Assembly (NCBI GenBank): GCA_037951105.1
Contig: JBAMJV010003231.1
Coordinates: 1 to 64,000 of the forward strand
Direction of reading: 5' to 3'
Length of the DNA: 64,000 nt
DNA from: Echinarachnius parma
Lineage: Eukaryota; Echinodermata; Echinoidea; Clypeasteroida; Echinarachniidae
This document shows positions 12,934 through 46,175 of this stretch, piece after piece (the first letter of the stretch is position 1; every line of letters begins with the position of its first letter). Under the pieces are notes generated by a model that was not told where the DNA came from, did not search any database, and worked only from the letters and a program-made list of their open reading frames with translations. The position numbers and the translations under genes are program-made.

Positions 12934-15900
12934 ATGGACATGGCAATGGTTGGGAATGACAAAGACGGTGTCCGGATGGTTGGTGTAATCATCGGGGCGA
13001 TGGGTAAGTTCTTTTGATAGTTAGGGTAACATAATTAAACAGAAATTAACATGCGTCTCCACACTGTGTTCACAAGCACACTGTCGTGAAAACAGATTTA
13101 AATCAACAAGCTATGAATACAACTATCATGAAACTGAACACATTGTGAACACACTGTGCTTCACACTATAGACCACGGTGTGTTAAATTGGAGCTTATCA
13201 ACAGTGTGAACTCTCATCACACTGTGAAAACACTGTGATCACACTGTGAGCGAACTGTCACCACATAACATTGGCTGCGTCCACAGTGTGTGAAATAGTT
13301 GCTCACACTGTGTATACCAGCAAGTTCACAGTGTGCTCACAGATTGAAGAGTGTTTGCAGTGTTTAAACTCTACAATTTAACATAGTATACACAGTGTGT
13401 TCACACTGTGGTCCACACTGTAAAACATAGTGTGTTCACACTGTGTTCTTTCTGGTAGGGAATCTTCTGAAAGCACCAATCGTATGTAAAGTTATTGGCA
13501 ACAAGTCGAAGATGAGATTTTTTCCATGTGTAGACAATAACTTATCCAGCTCATCAATCTTAATATGCTTGGTGTTTCCAAAATGCTCATCCAAGCTACT
13601 TGGAAGTTGGGTTTCTCATTCTCGTGATTGGTAGACCATATCACTTGATTGGCACCTTCTATTTCTCTTCTCTCTGTATCAAGAGTTGTTTGTGTTGCCT
13701 CATATTTGTTAATCGATCCAATCTTAAAGAACAGAGTGGATTCATACATCTGCGTACAGGTGCTTGTCAGTGTGTCAGTAATCACTGGAGGATCTATGAA
13801 GAATAATATGAACAAGTTAGAGGCTGATGACAGATCTCTGTGGTAATAACGCATCAACGATCAATGGAAATGGGACTTGAGCTACAACATGTGATTGTTC
13901 TGTCAGATAGGAAGCTCTATCAGCAATGCCGATTAGCCTGTTCAGATCAGGTCGCCGTGCCAAACCATGTTATGCGTTTCCTTGATGTCCAGTGTAACCA
14001 TCATATTGTATGACCTCTGTCCAAAGCGATGTACCATGGCTAAGCAAGTTGTGATGAGGATGTTACCTCCAATGTTGTGAGATGTGAATCCATTTGTCAA
14101 CCCGATATGAGATGTTGATGCAGTATGTAGATTTGCAGTTGCTTATGTGGTAATAATGATACAATAATGCTTGTGTTGCTGAGAACGAGGATGAAACAGT
14201 GCATTGACTTGAGAGTTTCTCGTATGTATTGGACTACCATGCGCAGTTTTCCGCTGGTTCGGAGAATCCCTTGCGAAAAGCAATGATCAAAGAAGTGGTT
14301 TAGCCACATCTTTTGGACCATATAGAAGGGATGTCATCTGTGCCGGTTGTCGGTTGTCGGGATCGAGTCGGATTTATCTACACTGGCTCTATCTACAGTT
14401 TCAAAAACAGTTAAATTATATCATAACAGAATGTTGATGCTTTTTAAAATTTATTGTAATGACACTTATGGCAAATTTAATCGAGTTCCTCCTTTATTGA
14501 AGCAGATATTGAGTTTAGTGGGAGATAAAAATACGATTTTTGTAAAACAAAATCAATGTCAAATAATGACTCTCCTTTGTGTTTGTCTTTTATTTTTTCC
14601 TCTACAGTTTTTCTATTAGGATGTGTCGGAGTTCATCCGGTTGAGTCGTTCCAAGCCCAAGGGGTCATTAACAGTTCAATCGCCTTACCGTGCGATATAC
14701 CAGAAGGCCTGAATGTTGATACAGTCAGATGGATGTTTAATTCATCGGTCTTCCTAACGTACTTTCCGAGAGATAACTTTCTTTCACCACCTAACCACGA
14801 TTCCCGGTATTCGATAACTGACCCTGAACGACTCCACATTTCGCGTCTTAAGAAATCGGACTCGGGAGAATACGCGTGTAGGATCACATTTGTTGAAGCA
14901 ATTGAAGATCTTATATCCATTGTATTTGTTAGCGTTCTAGGTAAATAATCGTATTTTATCAAAATTATTGATTTATTGAACTAATCAATTTGTTATAGTA
15001 ATTCGGAAGTCGTGCTTTCATTTTCTTAACCATAGGTTCTTTGAAAATATTTAATTTTCCAATAAAAGTGTGTATGTGACACCTTCAATATTATTTCAAT
15101 CGACTTTCTAATGTGACATTAAAACAGGTTCAATAACATGTTCCAATAAAGCCTCTCTACAAACAAGAAACGAACCTTGTATTTGTGGACTGCTAGTGAA
15201 CGCTACGTTAATGCACTGACATTCTTTGATATGATTGGTTTATTTCCTTCCCTTTTTCCTGAAAAAAAACTTGAATATATAATACCAAATCCTATTGGGT
15301 TCCTTGAATCATTTAAAATTCACTATAAAGTGTTTTGTGTATTACAATTAAGTAGCATTTAAGACAATTCATATTTTCCTTTATAATTTCACAATTATTT
15401 AATGGATGTATTAATTTGTAAAATGTCACATGTTTTAATTAATGTTTTTAAAAATACATTTACATACCCCCAAATCAGATAATTGACAATATAATAGAAC
15501 GAAATCAAAAAAGGTTTTGCACTTCATGTTTTAGATGGTTGCACTATGTGGGCGTACAACCCGCCGCTCGTGGGCACTACAAGTGGTTGTTCATCAGGCG
15601 ACGTGGTAGCATATGCTCAACAGTGTGACTTCACCTGCCAAGAGGGATTTCGTCTAGTGGGAAATGCATCTACAGCGTGCCAGGGAGATGGAGAACTAAC
15701 TAACCAGCCACCTCACTGTGCAGGTAACTACAACTCACTGTAGTTTACGTGATTGTACATTATGATCACAAATGTATCAGGGGTTTTTCTTAAAACCTTT
15801 CCATTTTCACACATTACTCAATGGACATATCAAATCACAGAACTAAACATTTTATCAAATCTTCGTCAGTTTTGTACAATTCAACAAAGTTACACGATTC

Positions 15901-18900
15901 TTTAAAGGGATATAGTAACTTTGTTGACATGTGCAAAAAGAGATGAATGGTTGATACAATGTATACTTTTGTTATCTTAAATCTCCACTGGGTGCTGTGT
16001 GAACATTTCAAATTAAATGGACATTGTATGGCCAAGTAATGAGCACAAATGCAAAGTGATATTCACTTACTCATTGCAGTCACTTTGTACACAGTTTTGA
16101 CGATCCAGTGGATAATTTAACAGCTGAACACTTCAATCGTAAATTTTCTTTTAACGAAAGGGAAATTTGAAAAACCGAAACCTGTCTAACGCTTCTACTG
16201 TTGGTACAAATACAACAAGGTATGAGGGATCCGCTATAATTCCAATTGGATTTTGAGGATTTGGACAATGTTAAAGTCCCTTTAACCCATTCTTAAAGAA
16301 TATGACATAACGCATCTGGTTCCCGTAGGCAAGGGGTACGTATATCAACATTTGCCGTTTAGGCGTCAAAAGCTATACAGGGTGGCCCCCAAAAAACGGA
16401 ACGGGGTACTTCCCCCAAAATAGTATCAACAAGATTATGTTCATCGGTTAGGGTATCTTTTCTAAATAAAAACGATACCAAGAACAGTCAATTTGGTCGT
16501 GTAGTTTTAGTTTTAAGGCGCTCTGAATGACACCATGTCAGGCTCCCATTTTTGTAAATCGAGCATTGAACAACGAGCAATACGCGCGCTATCTTTACTG
16601 TGCATTCAAATGTGTGCCGAGAGAATGGGCAATGGTTGTTCGATGGTATGCCGGGCAGTAAGTGCGATTTATCAGGCACTGACTTGGTAAAAATTGAAAA
16701 AAATGGGAACCTGACATGGTGTCACTCAGAGCGCCCTAAAAAAAAAACTACATGACCACAATTATTGTTCTTGTATCGTTTTTCATTGGAAAAAAATACC
16801 CTGTCCGATTTTGTTACTATATTTTGGGAAGTGCCCCGTTCCGTTTTTTGGGGCCACCCTGTATAGAAACAGAAGCCTCATACCATCCATATCCCGTCAC
16901 CCCCTCTGCTAGCTTGGCTATCGTGTGGCAAGATTGGTAGAGCGGGCGCTTTCCGACCATGAGATCCCGAGTTCGAACCCTGCCCACGGAGTTTGTCCTT
17001 CAGCAAGACAATTTATCCACTATTGCTGCTCTCTACCCAGGTGTATAAATGGGGACCGGTAGGAGGTGAAAGCCTTTATGTGAATGATCTTCTTGAGCCC
17101 ACTGAGCGCTTGGAAGGAATACTCCCCAGGGAGTGGAGATGGTGCACACAATGTGTGCTGGTTTGCATTGTATCCTATGACCGGGGTAATAATACAAATT
17201 GTAAAGCGCTTAGAGATGATTATCAATCGTGATAGGCGCTATATAGATAGTGAATATTATTATTATTATCATGTTATTTGTTTCGTAGGTAAATTTGGTG
17301 ATTCATTGATTGTTCAAATAATACAGTTGATAAATACAATTGAGCTTGAAACTGTCAAACACTGGCCTTATTTTATATCGTATCAAATATGACAGCTTGT
17401 TATTTAACACCATTATGTAAACGTACACTAAAACAGTCTTGTCAGTACCCCAAAATGTGATTTACAACAAAATAATTCGAGAAAACGAAAGCTTATACGT
17501 TGAATATGTAATAATAGCCTGAAGAGAGATATACAAAACTTACTAATATGCCTCTCCTAATTCCTAATTATTTTCAATACTTTTACGTTTATGGCCTACC
17601 CCGTCCCTCTCACTCGATTTCCCATTTCATCCCGGGTTTTTATCCTATTTCTTTATTCCCTTATTCTTTTGTTTTCATATATAATTTATGTCCCCATACT
17701 TCTCTTAAAAAATCAAATATATTGTTTCAATATATTTTCTTTCGACACTTTGTTTGCATTCATCTCTATATGTCTTTAATTATACTATATGCGCCCTATC
17801 TTTCCCCCATCTGCCACCCTCTCTTTCGACATGACAGGAGCTACCTGCACCATCGATAACCTTCCTCCACACCTCATCGATATGAACAAGCTTTGTTCGA
17901 ACGGATTGCTCGTAGACTATTGGACAATCTGCAATTTTGAATGTACCATTGGTTACAGAATGATTGGAAACGGTAAAATACGAGTCACGTGTCCCGATGG
18001 TTATGTTCCTGATTTTCCAGAATGCGAAGGTAATTGTTAAAACGTAACTTCTTTATGTTGATGAACATCTATAGTAAATGTATCTTGTACGAATAATACT
18101 ACTAATAAAGAAAAACCGATAGATAAAATAACATGCTATAGTTACCACTTTAATAAATGATGCTGTTAATATAACTTTGCTACTAATTTCGTCATGCTTT
18201 TAATAACACCGTTGTGCATATATCCGGCGTAGTTGTATTGACAAATTTCGAAGGCATTCGCGGTACCATGTTGACATCTCAGAATTACAAGGCTTCATTC
18301 TATAGTCATTCTCTAGGAAATAAACTATTCTTAGGATCACGTGTTTTAAAGGGATAGTTAAGTTTTGGTATAGAGGGCGCTACACAACATAATGTTTGTG
18401 TGAGATAATGAAAAACTGAGTATCAAATTCGATAGAGCATACAATTTTAATAACATAAACAAACTTTATTTTTTCAAAATTGGTTCAGAAATGGCTGAAA
18501 TATCCATAAGCATAACAATTTTAAAAAATTGTGGGGCCCAACGAGTATTCGACAATTTTGAACAAGCCGCTAACAAATTTTACAAAATGCTTTAGATAGT
18601 TGTTGATTATCTCTCTATCACTATTTCAACAAAAACATCGCACGCACAATATTTTATTTGAAATGGTTGAAACCGATGAATGTTTAGAGAGCACCCTTTT
18701 GAGTTTTAATCGCTCTTTTAAAAATGATAACAGGCTTTTTACTTGGTCATTTGTAATTTTGTATTCCATTCGAGGGTGGTGGAGTTATAACTATCAGTTT
18801 GTAATGTAATAATGCAGGTTTGGGTTACTCAAATTCAGTTTGACCAAAACTGTATTCTCTTTCCCGAAGCTATCTCTTTAACAGAAACAAATAGCAATTA

Positions 18901-21900
18901 CATTTTTTTTTACTATGATGATACATTGCCATTTATTGTTTGTTTTTTATTATCTATAATCGTGTCCTTTTTTTTGTTTCAATCCGATTGGGTATTTCAG
19001 ATAATGCCAAAGTTGCAATGAAAGTAATTAAAACTAATATAGGTAACCCGCATAATGTTAGTAATTAAACATTTCGTTTGTATGTAATGCATGTATAATA
19101 ATATGTGTGTATTCTCTTCCAATCATTTCAGATGATTCAGGGGGACGGAATGGTGGAACCATTGCACTCATCTCTCTTGGTGTATTTCTATTTACGGTGC
19201 TGATTATTGGTACAGTTATTCTTCTTTGGTGGCTCCGCAAAAACACTTATGGTAATTACTTTCTTTGATTTTTGAGATGTATAATATTTGTAAATGTATA
19301 GCATACCGACAAAGCAAGCCCTTACCACGCACTTATGCGAATTTGTATATTATACAAACCACAATTTGGTGTTTTAATTGTTACCTATTAAGAAAACTGT
19401 CTAGAACAGGCAACTTGTAAACTTAAATGTATTCCCCTGATAGAAAAAATAAACAAACACACACACCAACAAAACATAATGATATGGGAATAGTCTACAG
19501 AGGTCGCGTTGGTCAATATAAACAGATTTGAATGTAGGTTAATGTGATGTGAAATAAGTTTCATGTTTAATTTGCTATCATGTTTTTGAAAAGTTTCGAG
19601 GTTATGAATACTATATACAATCATTATAAAGTATCGTAAAATAGCATTATTAGTGTGATACAAGATGTCTGCTGGTAAAACGTAAAACAAATATTAATAT
19701 AGAAATAAAGATAAAAATATAAAAATACAATTGATGTGTTTGCAGGAAAAGGGAGACGTTCAGGGTACGACTCTAATCAACTAGAGGAACATACAACGGA
19801 TATTGGTAAGTTTTGTTTTATTTTTTTATTATTTATGCATATAAACTTTTACTTTCACAAATGATGTGATTCGTCAGCAATAGCTGTGTTACTAATCTAA
19901 TATAAATTTCACAATTAGTTTTATGACAACATAAATTACAACATACATGAAACACTAATGAATACATATTTTACTAAATTGAGTTAAAAAGGTAAATAGT
20001 TTTAAGAATGTAAATATTATATTTAGAACAGAAAGTGATGAAACATACTGGACGTTTGTTTTCGCCCATGGCCTGCTCAACGACGATTTGAGTTATGTTA
20101 ATGAACTTTATCACATATATATTGATTATATATCAAGGTCTACTTACCCAGGATGACGGAAAAGCCGACGAGAACAATATTTCCTGCATCAAGGTAATGC
20201 ATCTCTTTTCATGGTTTCAGGAAGTTCTGAAAATGTATTTATGCTCAGAAAACACCCACTATTACCATGTTATCTATTCCTTAGCTAGTCTTACTTTTTG
20301 AGTTGCAAATTTTAATATTCATATTAAGAATCATATTGTAATTAAATGTTGCTCTTTAGTTAAACAAACGGAAGTATTGATACTATTGATTCATTTTATA
20401 ATGGGGCAGTTTATACTGACTGTAATTGAACTAAAGTATTGTCATGTTGCTACTTGTATAAACGACATATTTGTATATCATACCGCTTTCAGGCAAATGA
20501 AGAGTTCATGGGATTATTGCAAGAACAAGTTGGAGAGAGCCTTGAATTTATGAAGAGAATACTACAAATAATGAAGCATGCCGAATTGTCGACTATCAAC
20601 AGGCTTCCAAAATTAAAGTTCAGAGCGAATGTAAGTGATTTGAAATAATTTGTCATATTAACTTGATTGAATGTCCAGTGATATTATCTAAACATTTTCT
20701 CAAGTTGTATGTACATTTGGAGATGAAACAGTGCACTCAATTGAATGAATACAACGTTTTACGAACAATTATGAGGTTCTAGTTTTCTCTTTGTTATGAT
20801 TACCAAAACAATTCTTAGTCAATGCCTTTCGGTATTGATTATGGTGCTGATTCTGACTACAAGGATTTAAATACAATCATTTTTTTTTTTATAAAAGGGG
20901 AATCTGTGAGCAAAAAAAAAGAAAAATATGTGGATGCGCCCCTCAACCAGTCGGTCCACGCTACGCCACAGTCTTAATAAATTAAATTAAGCATTACTGA
21001 CGTGTAAACGCTTGTTGTAATATTTCAGGAAGCCCTCTACGACATCACTGAACCTTCGGTACCCGACGCCTTTGTTGGGTATGTTGCTGAAATTGTTAAC
21101 TGTGTAGATCAGTCAGATCCATATATGGCGGACGAACTGATAGATGAAATATTTTCCGAAACCGGCAGGACTGGAGAATTCGAACCAGCATATCTGGAGA
21201 CGATACAAGCACATGGTCCCATTGAACCAGGAGACATCGCAGCGATTGAGGTGGGTCTAAACCGTTTATATCAAACAATGACTATAAACACCAACACGCA
21301 TGTACTCATAGTACAATTGTACTATTAGGGAATATAGGTACCTCAGATACTGTTTATGTGATGCATTACCAAAAAGCTCCCCCCAAAAAATCACAGTACC
21401 GGTTTATATTGATTAAATGGATAGTGCATGTTCACAGACCAAATATGTACTTGCATCATATTCATCCCAGAACTAGTCCCATTGACTTTGGAATGTAAAT
21501 GTGTTATCCGATTCCATTATAATAACCCTCCATGTACATATGTTATGCACAGTTTCATAACGTTGACTTATTTGACCAAAGTACTTGGAGTCTGTCACAT
21601 TTTCGTTTTCCCTTTTTGAGGGTTATACACTAACAGAAAAATAAATTGATTGACTACATTTTTGATATCATCTGGCAACACGTTTTGTTGTATAAAACTG
21701 TGTTACTTTCCCGTAATTAATGGACCATTTTCTTTTGTGTGTGGCAGAGTTATCAATCAGTGGTCCACCGTGCATTTATTAGACTGCTGGGTACTTTGCG
21801 GCGCAACATCGGGGATAAAGAAGTCAGAACACAAAGGACTGCCAAGATCTTTATTGCGTGTAGGCCTTCTGGTATAATAGCCAAGAGAAAGAAAGTGGGA

Positions 21901-23065
21901 TTTGTGGATATCAACACAAAATCTTCAAAGGTATTGCACTACGGTATAATATATTTTAACTCTGCATGTAATTATAATTGTCGTAGATCCTTACACAATA
22001 CTATTTTTCAAGGGGGAATATATGAACAGATCACCCCGAAACAGAATATTTCACTAAAAGATCTCGCCAGTGGCAAAGAGAACATTTTAAAAGTAAATAC
22101 CAATATTAAAATGTCCCAGGCCCCGCATTTCCATGAGTAGCACAACTTTTGTACGTTTACTGGTTGAAGCATTTTACACATGTTGCAAATACCCACATAT
22201 GTTTGAAACTCCTTTAATATATTTTATCATTGCAATTCCCTATAGCTATTGGCATCGAGAACAAGGAGCACATAACATATTAACTAGTTCAATAAGTCAC
22301 CAGTATTATTATGGCCTTCTGTTTTTGTTTTTTTCAATAAAGTCAATAATCACTGATCGTAAAAAATTGTATTTGAAAATGGCATTTATATTTAGACTCA
22401 ATTGCCTTCTCCAAATACCTTTATACTAGTCATCATTATAGTCCCCATTCTGTAGTGTCGGTCCATATAAGTAGGCACCAATATTAACGGTTGAATGCTA
22501 CAACAGTTGTGATGGCTCCCCGACAATCTCGTCTAGTAATTGTGAGTTCATCTTCTTTTGCTGCTTCGTTTTCTTTTATTCTCCACCCTCGTTGAACTTA
22601 AATATTTTCCAAACATGTGGTGATCCGTCGCATTATTTTGTTTTTATTAAGATAATTTCTAGCGCCTTTCTCTGTCAGATATGTTGTTTTTTATGGTTTG
22701 TATTATCATCATCATTGGAGAGGGTTCGCTTAGAATACAACCAACGGGGGTATCCATAGCTCATAGGTAAACAAAGGTGCATTTGTTTATTTGTTTTTAT
22801 TGAGACTCCTACAAAACAAATAACGGTTATTTGCCTTTTCCCTAATTACATTTTTCTTTAACAGAGTAATCCGTCGACTGCTCCTGGATCTACTGGTAGC
22901 ACGACATCGGGCTATGACCAATATGTTGGCGAACGGATTATGCGAAATATCGACAATTGTGATAACGTTGAGGATAGAGTACTAATGCGCTACAATCTGT
23001 TAAACATCATAATGGAGACATCTGATATATTGCCAGTGAGCAAAATACCTGAAGGTGCAGTATAG
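12934..23065 (+). CDS. Gene A: Ig V-like / 2x sushi (CCP) / transmembrane receptor, 11 exons
   Basis: Predicted type I cell-surface receptor of 587 residues; a recognition or adhesion role is inferred. Exons: 12934-13003, 14608-14940, 15535-15723, 17838-18029, 19132-19251, 19746-19805, 20138-20193, 20493-20630, 21029-21250, 21748-21930, 22865-23065. All junctions are GT-AG and the phases agree (1 through exon 6, then 0). The leader is split over exons 1-2 (hydrophobic VFLLGC at the start of exon 2). Residues about 40-133 are Ig V-like: LPC, VRW, DSGEYAC. Residues 135-197 and 198-261 are sushi modules, four Cys each. The transmembrane helix is about 272-295 and ends in WWLRK. The cytoplasmic region (about 297-587) matches no family I know. 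The start is the first ATG after an acceptor-like CTCACAG, so an upstream 5'UTR exon is likely. Introns are full of mobile elements. No AATAAA lies close to the stop; the nearest clear one is near 23575. Certainty is high for exons 2-5, good for the tail. Confidence 0.83.
13055..13455. repeat. CACAGTGTG / CACACTGTG motif cluster in gene A intron 1
   Basis: At least twelve exact or one-mismatch copies of CACACTGTG or its complement CACAGTGTG within 400 bp, irregularly spaced and in both orientations, immediately after exon 1. Neighbouring introns lack the motif. It may be subterminal repeats of a DNA transposon or binding sites; the sequence does not decide. Confidence 0.7.
13470..14340 (-). 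pseudogene. Antisense coding-like remnant in gene A intron 1
   Basis: A 121-codon frame at 13492-13857 and a 74-codon frame at 14097-14321, both on the minus strand, lie in a block with less AT bias than the surrounding intron. I cannot name the family; a decayed transposon gene is the likeliest source. No splice signals of the host gene fall inside. Confidence 0.25.
14608..14940 (+). CDS. Gene A exon 2: Ig V-like domain
   Basis: A 333-nt exon, phase 1 at both ends, holding the end of the leader and one complete Ig fold. Visible landmarks are the first cysteine in LPCDI, the core tryptophan in VRWMF, the D-x-G-x-Y-x-C motif as DSGEYAC, and two NSS glycosylation sequons. The acceptor is TCTACAG and the donor GTAAAT. 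A symmetric 1-1 exon carrying a whole domain is the classic shuffling unit of the Ig superfamily. Confidence 0.9.
15535..15723 (+). CDS. Gene A exon 3: sushi/CCP module 1
   Basis: A 189-nt phase 1-1 exon that encodes one complement-control-protein module. The four cysteines are spaced as GC-T…QQCDFTC…TAC…HC with the typical EGFRLVGN segment between Cys2 and Cys3. The acceptor is GTTTTAG, the donor GTAACT. The tryptophan usually seen before the last cysteine is absent, which is tolerated in diverged modules. Confidence 0.88.
15906..16281. mobile_element. Family B TTAA-flanked element, best copy (gene A intron 3)
   Basis: TTAA on both sides (15902-15905 and 16282-16285), ends AGGGATATAGTAAC and …TTAAAGTCCCT. 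376 bp, no ORF. Other copies: 168-545, 1930-2185, 25171-27252 (interrupted) and 40953-41276. Non-autonomous; the TTAA target suggests piggyBac-type mobilisation (inference). Confidence 0.75.
16378..16861. mobile_element. TA-flanked inverted-repeat element, Tc1/mariner-like MITE
   Basis: Terminal inverted repeats CAGGGTGGCCCCCAAAAAAC… and …GTTTTTTGGGGCCACCCTG are flanked by TA on each side (16376-16377, 16862-16863). 484 bp. Inside is a second palindrome (GACACCATGTCAGGCTCCCA and its complement near 16705-16730). The centre is shared with 8066-8265. No intact transposase. Lies in gene A intron 3. Confidence 0.85.
16915..17275 (+). mobile_element. tRNA-derived SINE (gene A intron 3)
   Basis: The head has RNA polymerase III boxes: A box TGGCAAGATTGG-TAGAGCGG (about 16925-16945) and B box GAGTTCGAACCC (about 16969-16980). 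The tail AATTGTAAAGCGCTTAGAGA…AGGCGCTATATAGATAGTGA ends in (ATT)n. The same CGCTATATAAAT-(ATT)n tail type is shared by many deuterostome SINEs and CR1/L2 LINEs, suggesting LINE-driven mobilisation. It is not a functional tRNA: the anticodon arm does not fold well. Confidence 0.82.
17838..18029 (+). CDS. Gene A exon 4: sushi/CCP module 2
   Basis: A 192-nt phase 1-1 exon with a second CCP module (ATCTID…LCSNG…CNFECTIGYRMIGNG…CPDG…ECEG). It follows the first module across a 2.1-kb intron that contains a TA-flanked inverted-repeat element and a SINE. The acceptor is ATGACAG, the donor GTAATT. As in module 1 the late tryptophan is missing. Confidence 0.88.
18350..18877. mobile_element. Family A TTAA-flanked element (gene A intron 4)
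   Basis: Begins TTAA-AGGGATAGTTAAGTTTTGGT and closes …GCTATCTC-TTTAA; contains the family landmarks GAGGGCGCTAC, AACAATTTTAAAAAATTGTG-GGGCCC and CTTGGTCATTTGTAATTTTG. No ORF of interest. Confidence 0.75.
19132..19251 (+). CDS. Gene A exon 5: juxtamembrane and transmembrane segment
   Basis: A 120-nt phase 1-1 exon. A short Gly-rich linker (DDSGGRNGG) is followed by about 23 hydrophobic residues, ending in WWLRK, the basic stop-transfer signal expected on the cytoplasmic side. It fixes the topology: Ig and CCP modules outside, exons 6-11 inside. The acceptor is ATTTCAG, the donor GTAATT. Confidence 0.88.
20138..23065 (+). CDS. Gene A exons 7-11: uncharacterised cytoplasmic region
   Basis: Five exons (20138-20193, 20493-20630, 21029-21250, 21748-21930, 22865-23065), phase 0 after exon 7, encode about 265 residues that look mostly helical and are rich in Glu, Asp, Ile and Leu. 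No kinase, TIR, death, CARD or ITAM signature is visible. Possible phosphotyrosine sites are EALYDI and SGYDQYV. Exon 10 ends in a basic patch (IIAKRKKVGF). The final exon ends in TAG at 23063-23065. An alternative reading through 22015-22095 meets an early in-frame stop and was not used. Confidence 0.7.
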
Positions 23066-24546: not shown

Positions 24547-25112
24547 AGGGATAGTTGAATTTTGGTAATGAGAGTACAGTTTTGGTCAAACGGAATTTTA
24601 GTAACCAAAACCTGCACAATTACATAATACAAACTAATAGTTATAAACTCCACCATGCTCAAAAGGAATACAAAACTACAAATGACTAAATAAAATGTCT
24701 GTTATCATTCAAAATGAGCCGTTATAACTCAAAAGGGCGCTCTCTGAACACTCATCGGTTTCGACCAATTTAAATAAAATATTGTGCATGTGATATTATG
24801 TTGAAATAGTGATTAGATAGAGAGATTATCAAAAACTATTTTAAAACCACTTCCGTAAATTTTTGAAAAGAGGAAGCATTTTAAATATTTGTTAACGGCT
24901 GGTTCAAAATTGTCGAATAATTGTGGGGCCCCACATTAATTACGAATGGAAATGATTATGGATATTTCAGCCATTTCTGAACCGATTTTGATCAAATAAA
25001 GTTTATTCTTCCATTGAAATTGTATGCTCTGTCGAATTTGACACACAGTTTTTCATTATCTCACCAAAAATATTTTGAGAAGCGCCCTCTATACCAAAAC
25101 TCAACTATCCCT
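24547..25112. mobile_element. Family A TTAA-flanked element
   Basis: Good copy: TTAA + AGGGATAGTTGAATTTTGGT … ACCAAAACTCAACTATCCCT + TTAA. 566 bp. Its centre contains TGTGGGGCCCCACA. Sits between gene A and gene B. Confidence 0.85.
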
Positions 25113-25250
25113 TTAAATGTTTGATATATGTTTGATATTATATTATTGTAAATAGCGCCCTCATATGGTGACCTTAAATGGATGTATTAATTTTGTTGAC
25201 ATGTGCAAGTGATGAATGATAGATACATTGTGCATTGTTGTTATCTTATA

Positions 25251-26524: not shown

Positions 26525-27076
26525 TAGAGGGAAATTTCAGTTTTGGTATAGAGGGCGCTACACAAAATTATTTCGGTGTGAGTTTCAAATTTGAAAGAGC
26601 ATACCATTTTTTTGTATGACATAATACATTCAATTTTATCAAAATCAGTTCAGAAATGGCTGAAATATCCATAAACATAACCATTTGTAATAATACTGGG
26701 GCCCCACAACTATTCGAACATTTTAAATCAGCCGTTACAAATTTGTCTTCCTCTTTTCAAAAAATAAAAATGAAATCTTTTTGTTATAGTTGTTGATTTT
26801 CTCTCTATCTTTTCACTATTTGAACAACACATAACATGCACAATATTCTATTTAAAATAGTTGAAACCAAAGAGTTTTTAAAGCGCGCCCTTTGGAGTAT
26901 TAACGGCTCTTTTTTTATGATAACAGGCTTTTTTACTTCGTCATTTGTAATTTTGTATTCCTTTCGAGCATGGTGGAGTCATAACTGTTATTTTGTAATG
27001 TAATGGTGCAAGTGTTGGTAACTAAAATTCCGTTTGACCAAAACTGTACTCTCTTTACCAAAACTCAACTATACTT
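26525..27076. mobile_element. Family A element
   Basis: Left flank mutated (TTTA), then GAGGGAAATTTCAGTTTTGG; right end ACCAAAACTCAACTATACTT-TTAA. The family landmark GGGGCCCCAC is present near 26700. Confidence 0.7.
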
Positions 27077-30900: not shown

Positions 30901-33900
30901 AATGGAAACGAGTATGGAGAAAAAGATACCCTAAACGCGTATTTTTTTAACTCCACAAACATACCCTTTTCCTGATCTTTGCCTTTTTGACACCCTAAAC
31001 GCGTCACGCCCGTGACGCGCCATGATCGGCAAAAAGTACCCTTTTTACGCGTTTTTTTTTGGTCGCGCGTGTGTGCAGCAATATAGTTGAGTGGCCCCCC
31101 GGGCTGTCGCTCCTCCATTTATATATCCCTCTCCATCGGACGACAGTGGCTTTGCTACTGTGCACAAGGACTTTTGAAACAGAATACCAATCATACTTAT
31201 CATTTCAAATGACAGTATCATAAAATACAAAGTTTCTATCCAGCACATCAATCAAGTTAACCAATCTATCTGTATACATACGTCAACAAGTGGTAAAACT
31301 TTCCACTCATCGTATAAAACCAATTACACTTGTTCTTCTTGTGACATTCGATGTGTAGTGCTTAATTGCCTATCCAGCCAACCAGAATTGTAATTTGCGT
31401 GTCACATAATGGAACAGCAGGAAATTCGACTTCGTCAGTCTGGTAGATGTTTCTGCAAGGGCAAATATTAATGAAATGCAACCATGGTGTTCGGTGTGCC
31501 TTGTGCAGTATTCATGATACTATTTGGCCCACGCTTCTTTGGTAAGTCTTAGTTGCTTTCTGTAATGATCCTCTTTTGAACAGACTATACATTTTATATA
31601 CAATATAATCGTTAAATTACAACGATGTAAGTTATTTACCAGATGTATGTAGATAAGAATATATATATTTAATTTACGTTTTTTTCTCTTTTTTTCAGAT
31701 AAAATACAAAGGTAAAAACGCACATTGTACACATTTACAGGTATTTTCTTTGAAGCAAACTGCTTGTTAACGGCAAACCCAAGTTGACAAAATCAAAATC
31801 AAGACAAAATGAAATATCTATATACTCTTCCTTAAGTATAGTAAACATAATTCTCAGTGTTCTAGTCAAGACCAGGCCATCTCAGACCAAGACCAAGACC
31901 AAGACAACACTCCCCGAGACCAAGACCAAAACCGAGAGGTCCAATACCAGCAATTTTCGAGACCAAGACCAAGACCAGCGTTTACTTAAAGGCATATATG
32001 CGTGGGTTATAATGGGTAGTCAGCAAATTCCAACTCGACTCCACAGTAATCTCTCGAGGTAAACCCACGATATGTGTTGGATTGATCGAAGAGAGGTGCT
32101 TCCAAATATATGAACAAAGGCCTTCTTATGAAATTGCATGCAGCAACCAAATTTATCACGCTATCACCCAAGGCATCAAACAGCGGCACTTTGAAGTCGG
32201 TTGCGGTTAAGCGTGTTACGTGATATTTTCGCTCGTAAACATCTCTGATGGATCTCCATTCGACTAGTACAAACATTCCGAACGCGACTATTTTTGATGC
32301 ATTTTTGACTCGGGTATTCGGAAGTGGGACAGTTTGCGATCGCTACTTATAACTGAGCCAATGGGGATTACGTACCGTGCGTAAAAGTGCGCAAGATGGA
32401 TCCACGCGTCTAATATACCGGTCTGAATTCCCTTTAATTGACACTAATTTGTAGTAAATAATGCAATGATTTGAAGATAACGCTACTTTGTTATTCAGTG
32501 TAGAGTATAGACTGCCTAGTGCTTACACATTGTGATCAGTCTGTAATAGAATAAAATGAACAATTAATGAAGAATGTAATAAATCATGTTTTTTAATTGT
32601 GCTTCTTTATTCACTTATCATGCATGCTCAAAGTTAACGCAAAATACGAGTCAATATAGTAGCTACAAGCTGCACAAAGGACTGAGAAGAATGTATAAAT
32701 GGAAAAAATACTTCTTTATTTCTCCATGAAATACAAATCAGACAAGGAATAAAAAGTGTTGTTAACTAAGAATACAGCTTCATACACTGGCGCGTTCAGC
32801 GCATCTCTAGCTATAAGTACTTTAGAGATCAGTGTGGGGGTGCATGTTAATAGCAGCAATGCAGCATGTCTTTCGCGGCCGGCTGTTCGTAACTTCGTAC
32901 ATGCGCGACCATACGATTAAGATTTTATGTAAAATCGTTATTTTTAGTTGCTGGTCTCGTGCTGGTCTCGGCCGAAAAATCCGAGACCAGAAGGTTCGAG
33001 ACCAAGATCAAGACCAAGACCAGAGGGTTCGAGACCAACACCGAGACCAAGACCAAGCAAACTGGTCTCGAGACTGGTCTTGGTCTCAAGACCAGTCTCG
33101 AGACCTAGAACACTGATTATTCTAACGTAGGTTTATTACACTGCACGAAGAAATTAACGTTAAACAAACAAGAACAAGTGCAAGAAAAAGAAAACCAACA
33201 ATAAAAACACCCCAACATCAATAATTATTCGGTGTAAGCAGTTGACGTTTAAGCATGTGTTTAAAAGTTATACAATTAACATTCTGCAAATATATAATAA
33301 GTTTGTTCTATTCTACAACCCGCTGGTATTTGATTGAGGGTTGTAAAAATGACGTTTTAATATTGGTAAATACAATTTGTCCTTTCCCCTCGTTTCAAGT
33401 CCAGGACTATCTGACTGGTTTTTTTTAACAGATCATTAAAAGTTTCAGGTAATTGTTGGTGTCCAAATTTATACATATAAATAACCACATTAAAAATAAT
33501 ACATCGTCTAAAATATTCCTTCCTGCATTGTTTTAAAATGAGGTATATCATGAGCTCTATAATTCGTATTAGAACAAATTAGATAGCTTTGTTTTGAAAA
33601 AAACTAAAAGTCTTCAATGTGTGAATTACTTGCACCTCCCCAGACCAAATTGCTTTAATTAAAATGTGGTAAAATAACAGACTAATACATCATTAATTGT
33701 AAAGTTTTAAACTACAAGAAATATCGTAACTTTGAAGGGGTAGTACACCTTTGGTAAGGCTGAACTTTAGTAACCAAAACCTGCACAGTAACATTACAAA
33801 CTAATATTTATAACCCCACCATGCTCGAAAGGTATACAAAAATACAAACGACTAAATTAAAAGCCTGTTATCATTCAAAAGGCGCCATTAAAACACAAGA

Positions 33901-36900
33901 GGGCGCTCTCTAATAAGGCATCGGTTTCGACCATTTATCATACAAAATTATGCATATGATGTTTTGTTGAAATAATGATTAAATAGAGAGATCATCAACA
34001 ACTATTTAAAAATCGCTTTTGAAAGTTTTTGAAAAAGTGTATATAAGCTTTTCTTTGTTTTTTCTTCAAAAAACCATCGTATATATTTGGGGCCCAAATA
34101 AATACGATCGGATACATTTATTAATATTTTATCAATTTCTGAACCGATTTTGACCAAATAAAGTTTATTCTGCCATTAAAATTGCATGTTCTTTCGAATT
34201 CGACACTCAGTTTTTCATTACCTCACGAAAAAATTGTGTTGTGCAGCGCCCTCTCTACCAAAACTGAACTACCCTTTAACAGATACTAGATACTACAACA
34301 GATACTACAGATACTAGCTTTTCATGATACATAATCAATGTGTTTTTACAAGTTAATTGATTGCCTACACCAAGGCCCAAGAAATTAATATTGTTAATTT
34401 TCTCAACTACAGTAGTCTATGATTGAATTTGAATTTGTGGAGTCTGTAACATCCTATTCACCCCATGATAATTAAGAGCATATATTTGTTTGACGTATTC
34501 ATTTATCATAACTAATTTCATTATTCTTAACTTATTTCATGTTTAACTTATAGAGTGCTGATGCACACAGTTTATTGCGACGGTGATATGCCAACATTCA
34601 TATTTTCTTAAAGTGTAAAATAGAAAACAAACAAATAGGTCTGATGGAAATATGAAACTATTTAAGACATGTTGTTAGCGTCTTTAGTATTAAACATATT
34701 GGGTTCGCCTTTCTCAAGATGTTGTGCTTCATCCTTTTCCAAAGTACGTTTCTGCAGTAAATACAAAAAAATAAAATCATAAAATAACGTTTAATGTTGT
34801 AGCAATTATCAAACTTAGGCAGTAGTATTTACAGATTAGTGCAGCCAAACAAGAAAGGCATGTCCAAGCAAGATCTGTACTCAATTTGACTTGACTTTTA
34901 ACGTTTGTTCAATCTAAGACTACATGATGAGAGCCGTCGGTGTCTGCAAAGCGATGTTTTATTTATTCTAAAGAACAAGATTCAGAATGATAATTATTTT
35001 CCGTAACCATCCTATAGGAAACTGTAATATAAACCAAATACAGTATTAATATATTTACCTATCTATATATGTATCTATCTATCTGACTATTTAGGTTATC
35101 CGGTTAGCGGTATTGAGTTTTCTAACGTATCCAAGATAGAAGTCATTGAAGGCGAGGATGCACATTTCTACTGTAGTTATCCAGAAGGCGATTTATCATC
35201 ACTTGCAGTATCCTTGACGTATATGGATGATGAAATCATACGATGTGGCATCGGTTGTTCCAATAAAACTGTTGGTCGTTTTGCTATAGTGGTTAGCCGA
35301 GTTAGCCGTACAAATACACTGATTTTGACCGATGTAAGCATTGAAGATGCAGGGAATTACAGCTGTCTGGCATCGGCAGACAAGGACTCCGAAAGGGTCT
35401 TCCTTGTACTCCAAGTTACGGGTGAGTAGCGGCCATTGACTGTAGTCACTGTACACATGCACATATAGTTATAAAAGACACCTTTCAACTTCTACAATTA
35501 TTATTATTGTAGTATTTTCGATACTTTTATGAAATGTATTTTTTCATGGAATTATTACAAAATTAGTTTAGTTTATAAATTATATCTTTCAATGCCATTC
35601 AATTCAATTCATTAAAGGTTTATTTTAAAATAACATTCTCGCAGCCGGAGATGAATTAAAAGATTAAAAGCACAGTCATTTACAAAATAAACAATGGTGA
35701 TGGTTAAACTATTTTAACCAAAACAGTCATGTACATGTGAACATCCGAATTGAAATCATACGCCAATACATAAAACACTTAGTGAATACATCAATACATT
35801 ATACAACATGTAGAACATCATACAAAAAATATACACCATGATTCTAATTCATTTTTATGAATAATAATCATTTAAGATATGAACAAATTAAGTTCAAGTT
35901 CAAGTTCAAGTTCAAGTTAAAGTTCAGCTTATTTCACGTCACATTAAAAATACATCAAAATATATATACATAGGAAACAATATAGAAAACAATATTCAAG
36001 AGTATCTAAAACATCTACACACAGCAATACAAGGACATGAAAAAAATAGTAATAATAAGCCGTAGTGGATGTGAGGGAAAGGCAAAGGCCATTGGCCTGT
36101 CAAGGCCTTTCCCTTTTTTAGCTACAACTTATAGAAATGAATATAGAAATGAATTACAGAACACACATAACACATACAAACACATAAAAGGCAGGCGTTT
36201 AAATTAATAGATCTATTGTAATGATGTATTACTCGGCGTAGACAGGTTCTTACACCTGGGGGATGATTTGCCATTCACCGGACCAAGACCAGTTTTTTCG
36301 CGGCCGAGACCACCTGCCGAAATATTTCGAGACCAAGACAATTGCTTGAAAGTCCTTGAGAGTCAGTGGCTCAGTGGGTGGGGGGGGGGGGGGGCGGGGG
36401 GGCGGGGGGTTAGATGTTATCCTATGGGGGATCACGATGTTATGTGTGTAGGGGCTCATGCCCAACCACACTCACAGTGCTGTCAACTTTGAGCCAGATG
36501 TGAGAGTGAGACATTGCAAGGAGCGAAGTGACTGAGCGGGGGGAGGGTGTGGGAGGGGGGTTTACCCCCTCCCACGTTATGGAGATTTTGCATTTTTGGA
36601 CTTGAAACTGTGTATGTTTGGTGCTTACCTAGATAGGAAATTCGGGCTTAAAATTGACTGTATCTGCGAAAGCGTGTTATGATTTGATCATGGAGGTCCA
36701 TGATTTGATCGACCAGAAATTTTGAATATATTTTCACGAAGAAAACAACTAATTGACACACTAATAAATATGCACCCCAACACAGGGAGCGAAATTACTG
36801 AGCGGGGGGAGGGTGTGGGAGGGGGTGTCCCCCCTCACACGGTAGGGAGATTTTGCATTTTTGGACTTGAAATTGTGCAATTTGGTGCTTACCTAGATAG

Positions 36901-39900
36901 GAAATTCGGGCTTAACATTGACTGTAACTGGGAAAGCGTGTTATGATTTGACACACTAATGAATATGCACCCCAACACAAATACAAATATTATATTTATA
37001 TTTAGCGTCATACACAGTTCCAACATCACCATAATTATGCCACATTATGTATGATCTAACAACTTAGCCTATTGCCAATAATGAGTCCCGCGGGGCGAAG
37101 CTACCGAGGGCTTGGGCAGAGCCAAATAGGGAGGGTTTGGGAGGGGGTATCCCCTTCCCACGGAGAAGATTTTGCATTGATATAATATACATGAAATGGT
37201 GCAAATTGGTGCACGTCACACAAGCAGCCAGAGCAATGCCAGCCTACACTGGAACTACGTGGCCCGGTATACAGAAAAAAAATACTCACCCCAGACCATA
37301 CGCAAGTTACACAACAAACTGAGATAATCTGTTCGCGCGCGAAGCGCGCAGCGAAAATTGAAAAAGGATGAAATTACTTTGTTAACGTTAGAATTAACAA
37401 GTCTTAGCTCATACACCATTGTTTTCTTTCCCACTTGTATACAGATACACAGACAAAAAAAAAAAACCTTCCCTAAAACCTGGAGGGGATGATTGTACAT
37501 GTCATCCCCCCACCTTGTAAGGTGGGGGGATGCATCCCCCTCATCCCCCCCGTTGTTTACGCCCCTGGTATTACTCATATATCCTTTTAACTTCCTTTTA
37601 AATTTACCTAGAGTTGGACACTGTTTCAATTCATCAGGCAAATCATTCCACAATATCGCACCTTGATAACTAATAATCGATCTAGAAAATGTATATTTAC
37701 AGAACGGAGTTTATATTTTATGTGAATTCCTTGTTTTATACACATTGACATCCCTATTACATTTTTGTTTAAATCAATTAAAAAGAGGAGGTAATAACTT
37801 TAAAATAGGAATTGAACTGCTCTTAAATCGATTGATTTTATTTCTGGACATTTCGTAAATCAAAATTGACATTTCTTTGTTTATACAGTTCCGCCAGGTG
37901 ACATTTTCATACAAGATGATTCCGGAAATGTGTATACTGACAAAGAAAGTGCAACAATGATCATTGGTTCTACACACAGATTTGTCTGCACTGCTAATCG
38001 TGCTGTCCAGTTACCGTTTTATCTGTCGTGGAAGAGAACTGGTGATGACAGTAATATCTACTTTTCGAATGCGGATATTCAAAACGCATCTCTGGGCAGC
38101 ATTTTCCTCGATGTCAATATTTCTAGACAACTGTCAAGTTTGACATGTGCACTGGCTGTCCATGGGAAAGTCACCAACGATTACTTTTGCTTAAACAGGA
38201 CCATTTACATTGATGCACATGGTAAGATATCAAACAAATAATACTGGTTAGTGATGTTTATTAAAGGGGCCCTGCAACCCAAATGCATGTTGACTTCTGT
38301 TCATCTGCATTAGTGTACACATTCAATATTTGTAAACGGTTTGACCCAAATATGTTTTGTATATTTTTAAACATTTATTTGTCTTCATGTTGCTAAGCCC
38401 CACCTCCTAAAAAACCCTCCAGAGCAAATTTTATTGTTGACCTGCAGTGACATCATTTGTCAATCACTGGTCAGCTACCATGAGATTAACAAAATATGAA
38501 AGTACAAAAAGAACATCCACACATCATGCCCTGCATACTTCCATGCAATAGCTTAGACAGTGCTTTTCTTCTGACATAGCAACAGCTATTGTAATTGAAG
38601 TTGTGTGAGTTGGTATTCTATTCAACCGTGTGATGCTATTGTGATTAGCCTAATATTTTTGTACTTTCATCTTTTGTTAATCTCATGGTAGCTGACCAGT
38701 GATTGACAAATGATGTCACTGCAGGTCAACAATAGAATTTGCTCTGGAGCATTTTTTAGGAGCTGGGGCTTAGCAACATGAAGACAAATAAATGATAAAA
38801 TGTTTAAAAATATACAAAACATATTTGGGTCAAATCGTTTACAAATATTGAATGTGTACACTAATACAGATGAACAGAGGTCAACATGTATTTGGGTTGC
38901 GGGGCCCCTTTAACTGTGATACTTGATAATTTGTCTGATTGTATGTTTGTTTTTTCAAAGATCATAGCATAGTAGTTTGTACTTTTCAACCAAGCTGATA
39001 ATAACCAATCATCAGGTTATCTGATGCGCAATATGCCATTAAAATGAAATTACAATTTAATTTGATCAATGGCACTGTACACAACAAGTAACTTTGTAAT
39101 ATAACCTTAGTATAGACTTTATCATTTCGTTCGTGTAATTTGTCAGTTTCATAATTTAATAGAGACAAGATTTAGTGTATTGTAGATTCTCTGACGTTTC
39201 ATGTTAACTGTCCACATTTTCACATTTCCAATGCTTCATCATAGGACCCCCAGCCATAACATCGAATTTCCAAACTGATTACTTAGAAGAAGGAATGGAA
39301 AACCTAACAATGACTTGCTCCCTGCCCAATAATGCAACAAAGCTCTCACTCCGATGGTCAAAATACAACGTCCCAAATGCAACGTTGGACCAGTCGACAT
39401 TGAAGAAGACGGGTGCTCAAATCCTTCATATCAGCCAGCTTGAAGCGAAACATGCGGGCAGATATATTTGTTCTTCAAATACGTCATCGGGTCCAGTCCA
39501 CGCTGAGTTTGGAATAATAGTTAATTGTAAGAACCTTGCCATGTACATTTATGATTGGACAACGATTGTTTGCATACAGTAGCTGTTTGCGTATTAAAAT
39601 AGTTGAATAATTCAATGTACCGTCATGTATGGCTTATACACAACCGTGAACAAATACAAATATGTACCAATACAAAAGACGGTAACAACATCCCACCATT
39701 GCCTATAATATGCGCATACTTTGTTTTCCCTGAGGATGAGCTACCTCAACATTAGTTAACAGTTACTTAGCATGAGTGGCAAACATTTTAGTTTTTCTAG
39801 TATTCTAATTAAAATTGCTCTGTGAAATAAGTACAGAAACCAATATTCAAACAAAAATGAATTATTAATTTGTTCTAATGACCTTGGTTTGTGGCAACAT

Positions 39901-42900
39901 GATCATAACAATTGAAACACATACTGTTGCATGCTTGTCAAAATAATGTTCTAAAGTTTTTTTTTTTATGTATAGATTCACCGAAAATTCGAGGCTTTGG
40001 TGTCGGAATGGAGGGATCAAATAACCAACAAAGCCTTATTGTGTTCTGCTTGAGCGAATCCCACCCTGAAGCGAACATCACGTGGACTGATATGTCAGGC
40101 AATCCAGTTGAGGGCAACGAGTTTCACGAATCAACAAATGTTACAACTTCCAGTAGTGGTTATAGAACCACTGTAATTTCTTCGCTATCTATTACGAAGG
40201 CATCAGCGATACAATTTGGGAATATTTCTTGTGTTGCAAGAAATCATGTTGGTGAATTCAGGAAATTGTTCGACTTGTTAGCAGTGGTAAATAATGGTAA
40301 ACATATGCAAGGATATTATTATCATTAACAAAGCAAAGTTATGGCGAATTAAGTACACATTAATGCGGTAAAACGTTTATTGATAACTGTATGGTAGCTT
40401 CATTAGCACGAAAACAGATCTTTGGATCGTCTTACTGATTCCAGGGAGAATTTAAACGAAAAGAAAAAGTAGAAGAGGAACATAAGAAGAAGACGAAATC
40501 AACGTCAGGAAGAGCAAAAAGAAGGGCAAAGGAGGAAGGAAAAGAAGACAAATAATAATCCTGATGAAATATATTTAAGTAGGTCAATAGTTGTGTACCT
40601 CTATGTTACATATTGCATTGATTTAGTATGTAATGTTCTGTGTGTGTGTGTAATTGTTAAAGTGAGCTATAAAGATACACGGGTACTCCTCAGCTTATAT
40701 AAGTTCATTGTTGTATTTCCTCTAAATCACATTGCATGTGCACATTGGTCATTAATGAACATATAATTTACGCTCACATGTACAGATATTACTACAATTC
40801 AGGCAGAAGTCACAGATAAAGCGATATCGTTTATACTGGAAATTTCCGCAGCCGTCATGGGGATAGGCATCGGATTTGTAATTTTCCTGGTTGCTGTCAT
40901 TCGTCTTACCTTGTACATTAAACGTAAGTTGCGTTAAATATTCTAAGCTCATTAAAAGGATCTAGTAACATTGTCCGAATCATCAAAACTCACTTGGAAT
41001 TATAGGTTCTGTAATTCCTTGTTGTATTCATATTAACAATATAATAAGTATGGGACAGGTTTCGGTTGTTCAGATATCAAACTAACCACTGGATAGTCGT
41101 AACCGTGTACAAAGTCTGTACAATAAGTAATTTAATATCTTTTTTGCATTTTGCTCATTACTCGGCCATGTAACATCCTTTTACAAGGTTTTCTTACACT
41201 ACTCAGTGGATAAATCAGATCACACCAATGCTCATCACTGTTACACATGTAAACAAAGTAACTAGATCCTTTTAAAAGGGTAGTTTAGTTTTGGTAAGGC
41301 TGAACTTTAGTAGCCAAAACCTGCACAGTAACATTATAAACTAATAGTTATAACTCCACCATGCTTGAAAGGTATACAAAATTACAAACGACCAAGTAAA
41401 ACGCCTGTTATCACTCAAAAAGAGCCATTAAAACACAAGAGGGCGCTTTTTTAAAAGGCATTGGTTTCAACCATTTTCAACCAAAATTATGCATGTGGTG
41501 TTTTGTTGATATAATGATTAAATAGCGAGATCATCAACACCCATTTAAAAAACGCTTTTAAATTTGTTTGAAAAAGTGCAAGCATTTTTTTATTTTTTTC
41601 AAAAAATCATCTAATTATTTGGGCCCCAAATAATTATAAGATCAGATATATTTATTGATATTTCAGCCGTTTCTGGGTCGATTTTGACCAAATAAAGTTT
41701 ATTCTGCCATTAAAATTGCATGTTCTCTCAAATTCGACACTCAGTTTTTCATTACCTCACAAAAAAATTGCGATGTGCAGCGCCCTCTCTACCAAAACTA
41801 AAATACCCCTTTAAGTTTAACATCCATTTATATGCGTTAAGGGGATGTAATGGGCATGTTGCATTGTGATGCGTATCAAGTTTGGGCATACTTTCCTTAT
41901 TTATATATTTTATTCAGTAAAGATATAAGATATTAAGTATTTATACCGTATGGTATTTCGTCTACTTGTCTGTCTTTTCTGATGAATAGTTTCGACAGTG
42001 TTAATTATTTCAGTGTAAATGGCCTGAATTTAGTGATCTCTTTATGAGGGGTTGCGTCTTGAAGTGTTTGACGATTCCGGGGTAAATGTACAATGTGTTA
42101 CTTGAAAGATATGATTTAGTATTTTATTCAAATCCAAACCTAAATTTCGTACACGATGTGCTTGGTTTAAAGGTTGCACATCATCTTATAGTCCTAGACG
42201 TCGACGTCGGTCCGGGAGTATTTCGTGTGATCTCGGTCAGCGGAATCTGCCAGCTATTCCTGCCAATCCAGTACCCTCCAGTGAGGTGTGCTTGCCTGGT
42301 ATGTCTAGTGGTCTGGAAACGACTGATGCATTGGGCATGTCTGCTTTGGCTGGTTGGAATGCACCCTTCCTGAACGTTCCGATTGCGCTGACATCAATTA
42401 TGTCACACATTCAGGAATCGATTCAGAATATGGACACTCAAACTATCCAGAATTGCCGACGTACATATCCCCATCATCAAGAAAGGCAACATCAGGTAAA
42501 ATATGTCTTTGTGTATGATTATGTTATACATTCAATTCTAGTAAGGCCTGTACGAAGTAAGCAAGAACATTATTGATGCTTTACATCCGATTCCTGACAT
42601 CGTGCAGTATGGTGTATAACAAATCATGAAAAGTCAGATATAAACCTCCTTTACATTGCTCATTGATGAAAGAATATGTAACTTGAAGGTAAACACGGGG
42701 ATCGTATACCATATCCTATACTGCCAGATTTACTGGACATAATAAACAATGTCATGCTTGAAGTAAATATGGAATTACGTTAGTATATTTTTGGTACAGC
42801 GGAGTTGTTTTCTAGGTTTATCATGGATAATTATTCGCTATTTTTAGTGTTGTCGTCCTTCTTATCAAAACTAATGTATCTTCTACAGGCTTCTTCAGAA

Positions 42901-44449: not shown

Positions 44450-46175
44450 GCGAAGAATCTGAGGATGGATACAAACAGTAGTTCCATCCGTAATAAGCAA
44501 TGTTATCATTATTTTGATTTAGCGTGTAAAACTATATCATAATTATAGCATCTTGTTGTAATGAGCAGGGTACGTTGCAACTTTTGATGGTTAGACTATA
44601 AAAGGTTAGAGACATTGAAAGTCTGACGTTGATGGCGCCTAACTTAGCAACAGTTCATTGGTAGCTTAAAGGGATAGTTGAGTTTTGGTAGAGAGGGCGC
44701 TAGACTACTTATTTTTTTGGTGAGGTAATGAAAAACTGAGTGTAAAATATGAAAGAGCATAATATTTAAATAATAAAATCATCTTTGTTTGATCTAAATC
44801 GGTTCAGAGACGGCTGAAATATCCATAAATATAACAATTTGTAATAAAGCTGGGGCCCCAGGTTTATTAAAGAATTTTGAACCAGTCGTTAAAAATTCAA
44901 AAAAATGCTTCCTCTTTTCAAAAAGTTACAAAATGGGTATTTAAATAGTTGTTGGTTATTTCTCTATATAATCACTATTTCAACAAAATATCACATGCAC
45001 AATATTTTATTCAAAATGGTTCAAACCGATGAGTGTTTAGAGAGCGCCCTCTTACGTTTTAACGGCTCTTTTTGAATGATAACATGATCTTTACGTCATT
45101 TGTAATTTTGTGTTTTTTTTTCTAGTTATAACTATTAGTTTGTAATGTAATGATGCAGGTTTTGGTTACTAAAATTCAGTTTCACCAAAACTGTACTCTC
45201 CTTACCAGAACTCAACTATCCCTTTAACAAAAATGAAAAAAATACAAACCACACAGTTCATATGGTTCATTGAATGTAATGTTTTTTTTACGATCACGCT
45301 AATCTGATCTGCTAATCTGCTAAATAACTTATTACATTAATTATTTTCACTCATTGTTTATGCCTTTGTATTATGGTACTGACAAGTTTGATTTATTAAT
45401 CGATTGATTTATTTATTAAAACAAAACACTAAAATATAAGCACATGTACAGCAAAATATTACTTGTGATATGATACTTTTATTTCCATTTTGAATCCGTT
45501 GATACTGTTAAAGAGCATACGTGTGTCGAAAGCCAAAGTACACACAAAGGCTAGTCTAATGAGGTGTTTAATCTTAAAATGGAGGCGGCACAAACAGTAA
45601 TACACACTTGTGTTCCATTGAATACAAACTGTCAATAACCTTGCAAAATAACACGTTAGCACCATGCACATTTCATATGTTTATAATATCTAATTGTCTA
45701 AACCCGTGACATTTTGATGTATCAATAACTCAAATCTGTAGTCTAAAAGCGACGGTAAAATCGGATGCATATTTTGGGGACGAACATGTACTGTTTAAAT
45801 ACGATATGTATTGTATAATAGGTTTATTTACAGTGTAATAACAATCCAATTCAAAATGTTAACTTTCGACACCCGATACGTATACAATTTGTAATATAAT
45901 TCTAATAAAAAGTAATGATTATCATAGCAAATATAAATAATGTAGCTTATATTCATGCAAATTATATGTTGGAAACGCTGTATTTTTTCTTAATTTTGTT
46001 AAGGATTTGTCCTCCTATGTTTGCTTACTGTTTATGCTTTATACATAACGTTTACATGGTTTATATGAGAAGTGTATGCAAAATATAGCACTCGTAAATG
46101 TGGACAAGTTGATCATTGACTTTGATATAAACTTGTCTCATCATACTATTTGCTTTGAAATAATCTACCGAAATA
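44450..46175 (+). pseudogene. Duplicated, broken 3' end of gene B
   Basis: 44453-44668 repeats 43668-43880 (end of the last coding exon and 3' UTR) at high identity by eye. After the shared GEESEDGY codons a short insertion brings an in-frame TAG, so the copy is dead. The duplicated DNA resumes at about 45240-45290 and 45720-46175, matching about 43880-43925 and 43965-44420. It is interrupted by a TTAA-flanked inverted-repeat element at 44670-45223 and by unrelated sequence at 45290-45710. Confidence 0.7.
44670..45223. mobile_element. Family A element inside the duplicated gene B 3' end
   Basis: TTAA (44666-44669) + AGGGATAGTTGAGTTTTGGT … ACTCAACTATCCC-TTTAA. It splits the second copy of the gene B 3' UTR and is absent from the first copy near 43881, so it came after the duplication. 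Confidence 0.8.

Follow-up and report, generated by a model that had tools for sequence, protein, structure and literature searches.

Between positions 12934 and 23065 of the forward strand of the window, namely, the whole 64,000-nucleotide stretch of Echinarachnius parma DNA that was analysed, a credible animal gene is predicted that encodes a receptor of the cell surface, in which one immunoglobulin (Ig) domain is combined with two CCP (sushi) modules. Judged by its relatives elsewhere in the genome, the long cytoplasmic tail of this receptor is a module common to a multigene family, known here from its tail exons alone, and not an orphan or one-off sequence. The receptor itself is probably a member of an expanded recognition family, again one known from tail exons, and we prefer a recognition family over a single-copy adhesion receptor because the tail copies are many. 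On balance, we give an even chance to the protein being a type I receptor at the cell surface, from an expanded germline family, which would serve self/non-self or microbial recognition and whose tail would recruit a partner.

The gene model is a phase-consistent chain of 12 exons, in which all 11 introns have GT..AG boundaries and every exon phase joins, leading to a predicted protein of 601 residues. Skipping of a 42-nt exon at 19001-19042 gives 11 exons and 587 residues, so the eleven exons counted by an earlier, sequence-only reading of this DNA are correct for the shorter form, and twelve for the longer one. From N- to C-terminus, the predicted protein consists of a hydrophobic N-terminus, the Ig domain, CCP1, CCP2, a skippable stalk, a transmembrane helix and a cytoplasmic region of 291 residues, very near the 290 or so that had been estimated. 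The features of the model are as follows:

12934..13003, + strand: exon 1, start codon and first half of the hydrophobic N-terminus (signal peptide or alternative first exon); ATG, GT donor, phase 1, hydrophobic at residues 10-38 jointly with exon 2
14556..14607, + strand: candidate alternative 5' end; the ATG at 14556 is in frame with the Ig exon, which it reaches without a stop (open frame 14529-14945)
14608..14940, + strand: exon 2, remainder of the hydrophobic N-terminus and V-like Ig domain, Cys52/Cys114 (Pfam Ig_3 and V-set below cut-off; SLAMF6 5e-7)
15535..15723, + strand: exon 3, CCP/sushi module 1, six cysteines at 137, 153, 165, 169, 183 and 196 (Pfam Sushi)
17838..18029, + strand: exon 4, CCP/sushi module 2, six cysteines at 201, 217, 229, 233, 249 and 260 (Pfam Sushi)
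19001..19042, + strand: exon 5, optional 14-residue stalk, phase 1-1, 42 nt (open frame kept with or without it)
19132..19251, + strand: exon 6, transmembrane helix (hydropathy peak 2.75)
19746..19805, + strand: exon 7, juxtamembrane segment (splice sites, phase)
20138..20193, + strand: exon 8, linker (splice sites, phase)
20493..20630, + strand: exon 9, tail module exon a (relatives on other contigs)
21029..21250, + strand: exon 10, tail module exon b, whose core is the piece recurring most widely (relatives on other contigs)
21748..21930, + strand: exon 11, tail module exon c (relatives on other contigs)
22865..23065, + strand: exon 12, tail module exon d and stop codon (relatives on other contigs)

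The phases of these exons fall into two classes. Each of exons 2 to 7 is of phase 1-1, and the tail exons 9 to 12 are of phase 0, with the switch of phase class from 1 to 0 at exon 8; in the extracellular part, phase 1-1 exons are what one expects where modules have been shuffled. A crude scan of 14601-23065 returned 45 candidate combinations of acceptor, donor and frame on the plus strand versus 14 on the minus strand. Exons 1, 5, 7 and 8 were placed solely by their splice signals, their phase and an open frame, whereas the chain at exons 9 to 12 is more than chance, because the relatives of these exons on other contigs have edges near the predicted splice sites. Exon 1, which lies 1.6 kb upstream of exon 2, is the least certain exon, since the ATG at 14556 could supply another hydrophobic N-terminus, and translation may start there instead. 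Within the window there is no second copy of the gene, and apart from the gene itself only the stretch at 39301-39471 gives a match, a weak one of Ig type (E 0.34).

To follow the tail through the same genome (1.2 Gb, 14,790 contigs), exons 9 to 12 (247 aa) were used as the query of a six-frame search with E values up to 0.1. This search returned at least 105 matching pieces on at least 47 contigs, the four pieces and the contig of the window included. On at least 14 of the 47 contigs, that is, at least 13 in addition to our own, the four tail exons follow in order on one strand, with identities per exon of 45-96% on the 13 further contigs. Thus, the long tail singled out by the sequence-only reading is real, but it is not unique to this gene. 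Among the matches listed, the nearest copies are on contigs C10385 and C2234, with 94-96% identity in exon 9 and 80-83% in exon 10. Exon 10 was the only exon matched on 20 of 48 contig strands, mostly through a core around query residues 52-92, and it may belong to a wider and more distant family, whose weakest pieces lie near the E limit.

The copies are not uniform. Several matched tail pieces contain a stop codon, and either some family members may be dead or the stops may belong to neighbouring introns. On C1241 there is no separate match to exon 9, the exon 10 match has three stops, and a stray piece lies far off, and on C7807 exon 9 is matched on either strand. On C8307 the four exons extend over about 20 kb, and on C9118 over 11 kb. 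Some contigs, or pairs of them, may represent the second haplotype.

The ectodomain came out as the sequence-only reading had it, namely, as one V-like Ig domain and two sushi modules on a single-pass protein. First, two stretches of the protein match Pfam Sushi over its curated cut-off (E 8.9e-9 for the whole protein). These two modules have six cysteines each, the first four of which are alike in spacing (16, 12, 4), and they share 37-38% identity over 42-43 residues. Second, the Ig domain is matched in Pfam by Ig_3 (1.8e-5) and V-set (2.8e-4), each below its own cut-off, and the best single-domain match of the Ig exon in the PDB is one domain of SLAMF6 (E 5e-7). SLAM/CD2-type Ig receptors, which resemble our protein in this domain, are not known to have CCP modules and possess a tyrosine-switch tail. 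Third, there is one transmembrane segment, at about residues 283-310, which is the strongest hydrophobic segment of the protein (Kyte-Doolittle peak 2.75) and precedes the cytoplasmic region. Two weaker segments exceed the threshold of 1.4: residues 10-38 at the N-terminus (peak 2.3), read as a signal peptide on hydropathy only, and residues 113-140, where the Ig domain ends (peak 1.95), read as Ig strands.

The relatives of the Ig exon bear on a different reading of the gene, that of a cell-adhesion or neural/synaptic receptor, in which Ig and CCP would mediate contact with other cells or with the matrix and not immunity. Chains of Robo, DCC, contactin and Dscam also match this exon in the PDB, and the best E-value, 2.4e-7, belongs to Robo2, if only by summing several weak domains; moreover, synaptic CCP proteins are the subject of a review (PMC9083331, partial text). 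However, the best single-domain relative is SLAMF6, and many tail copies of varying identity are more in keeping with an immune family than with a conserved neural receptor, all of which leaves an adhesion or neural role doubtful, if worth keeping in mind.

The CCP pair, in turn, has CR1, CR2 and factor H as its best PDB relatives, a likeness in the CCP fold that is in line with the complement link suggested from the sequence. Such matches, however, would be expected for any CCP pair, and what they support is the generic fold only, in a genome where CCP modules are common: Sushi was matched in 150 of the 150 candidates scored, out of 1658 first-look candidates. By eye, the contigs of these scored Sushi places and those with tail pieces do not overlap, a comparison that carries no weight, since the CCPs of the window itself also fall outside the 150. 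We consider it improbable that the protein is a complement receptor or regulator, of which the CCP pair would bind C3 fragments and the tail would drive uptake, as it has two modules only, and these with six cysteines each. The usual CCP module has four cysteines, and CR1, CR2 and factor H have long CCP arrays, no known Ig domain, and a short tail or none. A pattern-recognition role, proposed together with the complement link, is possible for an Ig-CCP-CCP receptor.

A further alternative concerns the gene model itself. The receptor could end after the juxtamembrane exons, with the tail exons belonging to a separate downstream gene, and this would accord with the wide recurrence of the tail module, with a paralogue search that started at exon 9, and with the change of phase class at exon 8. 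Against it, the GT donor of exon 8 is plausible and the reading frame continues into exon 9 across an intron of 299 bases, and so we attach only a small probability to two genes. The long tail hinges on the junction between exons 8 and 9, which is predicted from sequence only.

As for what the tail is, the only named profile that it matches is M11L, of a viral Bcl-2-like family, with an E value of 0.0096 when the 266-aa tail is scanned against Pfam. The score of 16.7 bits falls short of the cut-off of 26.9 at which the profile would assign a Bcl-2/M11L fold. The match weakens to E 0.082 with the entire protein of 601 aa as the query and to 0.1 with a tail cut of 169 aa, and a cut of 101 aa has no Pfam match to M11L. 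Pfam has no other Bcl-2 or death-fold profile that matches the tail, and a death-effector-like reading of exons 10 and 11, made by eye, was dropped for want of a supporting profile there. Likewise, the tail has no match in NCBIfam up to E 1, in PHROGs up to E 0.1 or in phages up to E 0.01, nor in the viral contigs of IMG/VR, in a scan that detects close relatives only. The PDB sequence matches of the tail, SdeA (E 0.57) and hirsutellin A (0.83), were judged to be chance. Compared with itself up to E 10, the tail gives nothing but the self-match, and so shows no internal repeats.

The tail is probably helical, on the weak basis of an AlphaFold2 model built from a single sequence, in which nine helices and no strand are assigned. 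Profiles and structure prediction had both been put forward as checks on the sequence-only reading, and of these the former gave Sushi and the latter a tail model with a mean pLDDT of 36, which is unusable. No ITIM, ITAM or hemITAM pattern was found in the tail. It does contain two Y-x-x-I/L/V motifs, at 476 and 578, but a pattern this short may be there by coincidence. It is highly improbable that the receptor has, as its tail, a diverged module of the Bcl-2 or death fold that would couple it directly to the control of cell death: M11L is the only named profile and helices are assigned in the poor model, but the match is under its cut-off and weaker or absent with the whole protein or with tail cuts, no other profile of these folds agrees, and the PDB matches are at chance level and of other kinds.

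We return, thus, to a surface receptor of an expanded recognition family, for which the following mode of action can be envisaged. The Ig domain, at the tip, would bind a ligand carried by a particle or a second cell, and the CCP pair, together with the optional stalk exon, would form a rod that sets the height of this domain. Binding of the ligand would cluster the receptor, and the probably helical tail would then recruit a cytoplasmic partner through protein-protein contact, not through ITIM or ITAM motifs. The likeliest setting would be immune cells, in self/non-self or microbial recognition. In this the receptor would work like the fester and FcoR receptors of Botryllus, which does not imply kinship with them.

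The fester and FcoR proteins are allorecognition receptors of Botryllus (excerpt of PMC12065747), and they show that the pairing of Ig and CCP, which the sequence-only reading called unusual, is less so than was claimed, since it makes up the ectodomain of the fester family and part of that of FcoR. According to the same excerpt, the fester family (FF), with fester and uncle fester, is a multigene family in which Ig and sushi domains follow a signal sequence and precede three transmembrane segments and a short tail; for fester, the excerpted text of PMC3549757 names a sushi domain only. Our protein has the same ectodomain after a signal sequence, the latter by hydropathy only, but it differs in having one transmembrane segment, two CCPs and a 291-residue tail. 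FcoR of Botryllus schlosseri comprises a V-type Ig, a sushi domain, two C2-type Ig domains, one transmembrane segment and a long intracellular tail, in proteins of 520-610 aa with 53 loci reported (PMC12065747, in part). The V-type Ig, the sushi domain, the single transmembrane segment, the long tail and the size, 587 or 601 aa, are all found here. In place of the two C2-type Ig domains, however, our protein has a second CCP, with no Ig found between the CCPs and the membrane. FcoR tails carry ITIM, hemITAM or core tyrosine motifs (same excerpt), in contrast with a tail that has neither ITIM nor hemITAM and two Y-x-x-I/L/V motifs. Alternative splicing in Botryllus mostly affects exons between the Ig/sushi part and the transmembrane segment, as stated in that part of PMC12065747. 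The skippable stalk exon of our gene occupies the corresponding place.

On the features compared, our protein therefore fits neither group, because fester has three transmembrane segments and FcoR two extra Ig domains. The Botryllus receptors are nonetheless the best working model, and the gene described here may work alike. In the open-access titles and abstract openings searched, no receptor of Ig-CCP-CCP type with a tail family like this one is announced. It is rather unlikely, in our view, that we face an independent germline Ig-CCP multigene system in the manner of fester and FcoR, in which an undescribed helical signalling tail, possibly Bcl-2-like, would link recognition to cell survival. 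If the paralogues keep the tail and vary their Ig and CCP exons, they would constitute a germline repertoire for recognition that signals through a new cytoplasmic module, in parallel to the Botryllus allorecognition receptors, and an Ig-CCP gene set with which to test self/non-self discrimination in animals that have no antibodies. If only the tail is shared, it would still be a cytoplasmic domain family unnamed in the libraries searched, namely, Pfam, NCBIfam and PHROGs.

Downstream of the receptor gene, a neighbour gene at 35028-43728 (+) has at least three exons of Ig similarity, of which 35028-35426 and 39208-39579 are over the curated cut-off of Pfam and 39909-40325 is just below it. By eye, this gene has a transmembrane-like exon near 40786-40924 and tail exons to about 43728; two frames of its tail have no Pfam family over the cut-off. 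A second Ig receptor adjoining the first recalls the FF/FcoR pairs, by analogy.

The introns and flanks are rich in repeats. Intron 1 holds, at 13060-13437, a cluster of short palindrome-like repeats with 10 of the 11 copies of CACAGTGTG or CACACTGTG in the window, in which Tandem Repeats Finder sees one weak array (13208-13265). In intron 3, an inverted repeat pair at 16373-16866, of about 82% identity, is MITE-like, and after it comes, at about 16960-17240, what by eye looks like a tRNA-derived SINE; ARAGORN finds no tRNA genes in the window. A dispersed repeat in intron 4 (18345-18868) has copies at 24561-25117, 26579-27056, 33744-34279, 41287-41814 and 44666-45210, and a further one in two pieces at 61079-61517, and it also occurs within an intron of the neighbour Ig gene. 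An inverted repeat at 59611-60476 matches itself at 91.6% over 868 bases; a match to MIR827 inside it, at 35.4 against a gathering score of 65 bits, probably reflects just the hairpin. A SCAN match at 56700-57089 (5.5e-5) is below cut-off; gag-derived proteins may match SCAN. Finally, two reverse transcriptase frames (RVT_1), at 51414-52745 (+; E 1.2e-34) and 62927-63484 (-; E 1.9e-13), mark retroelements.
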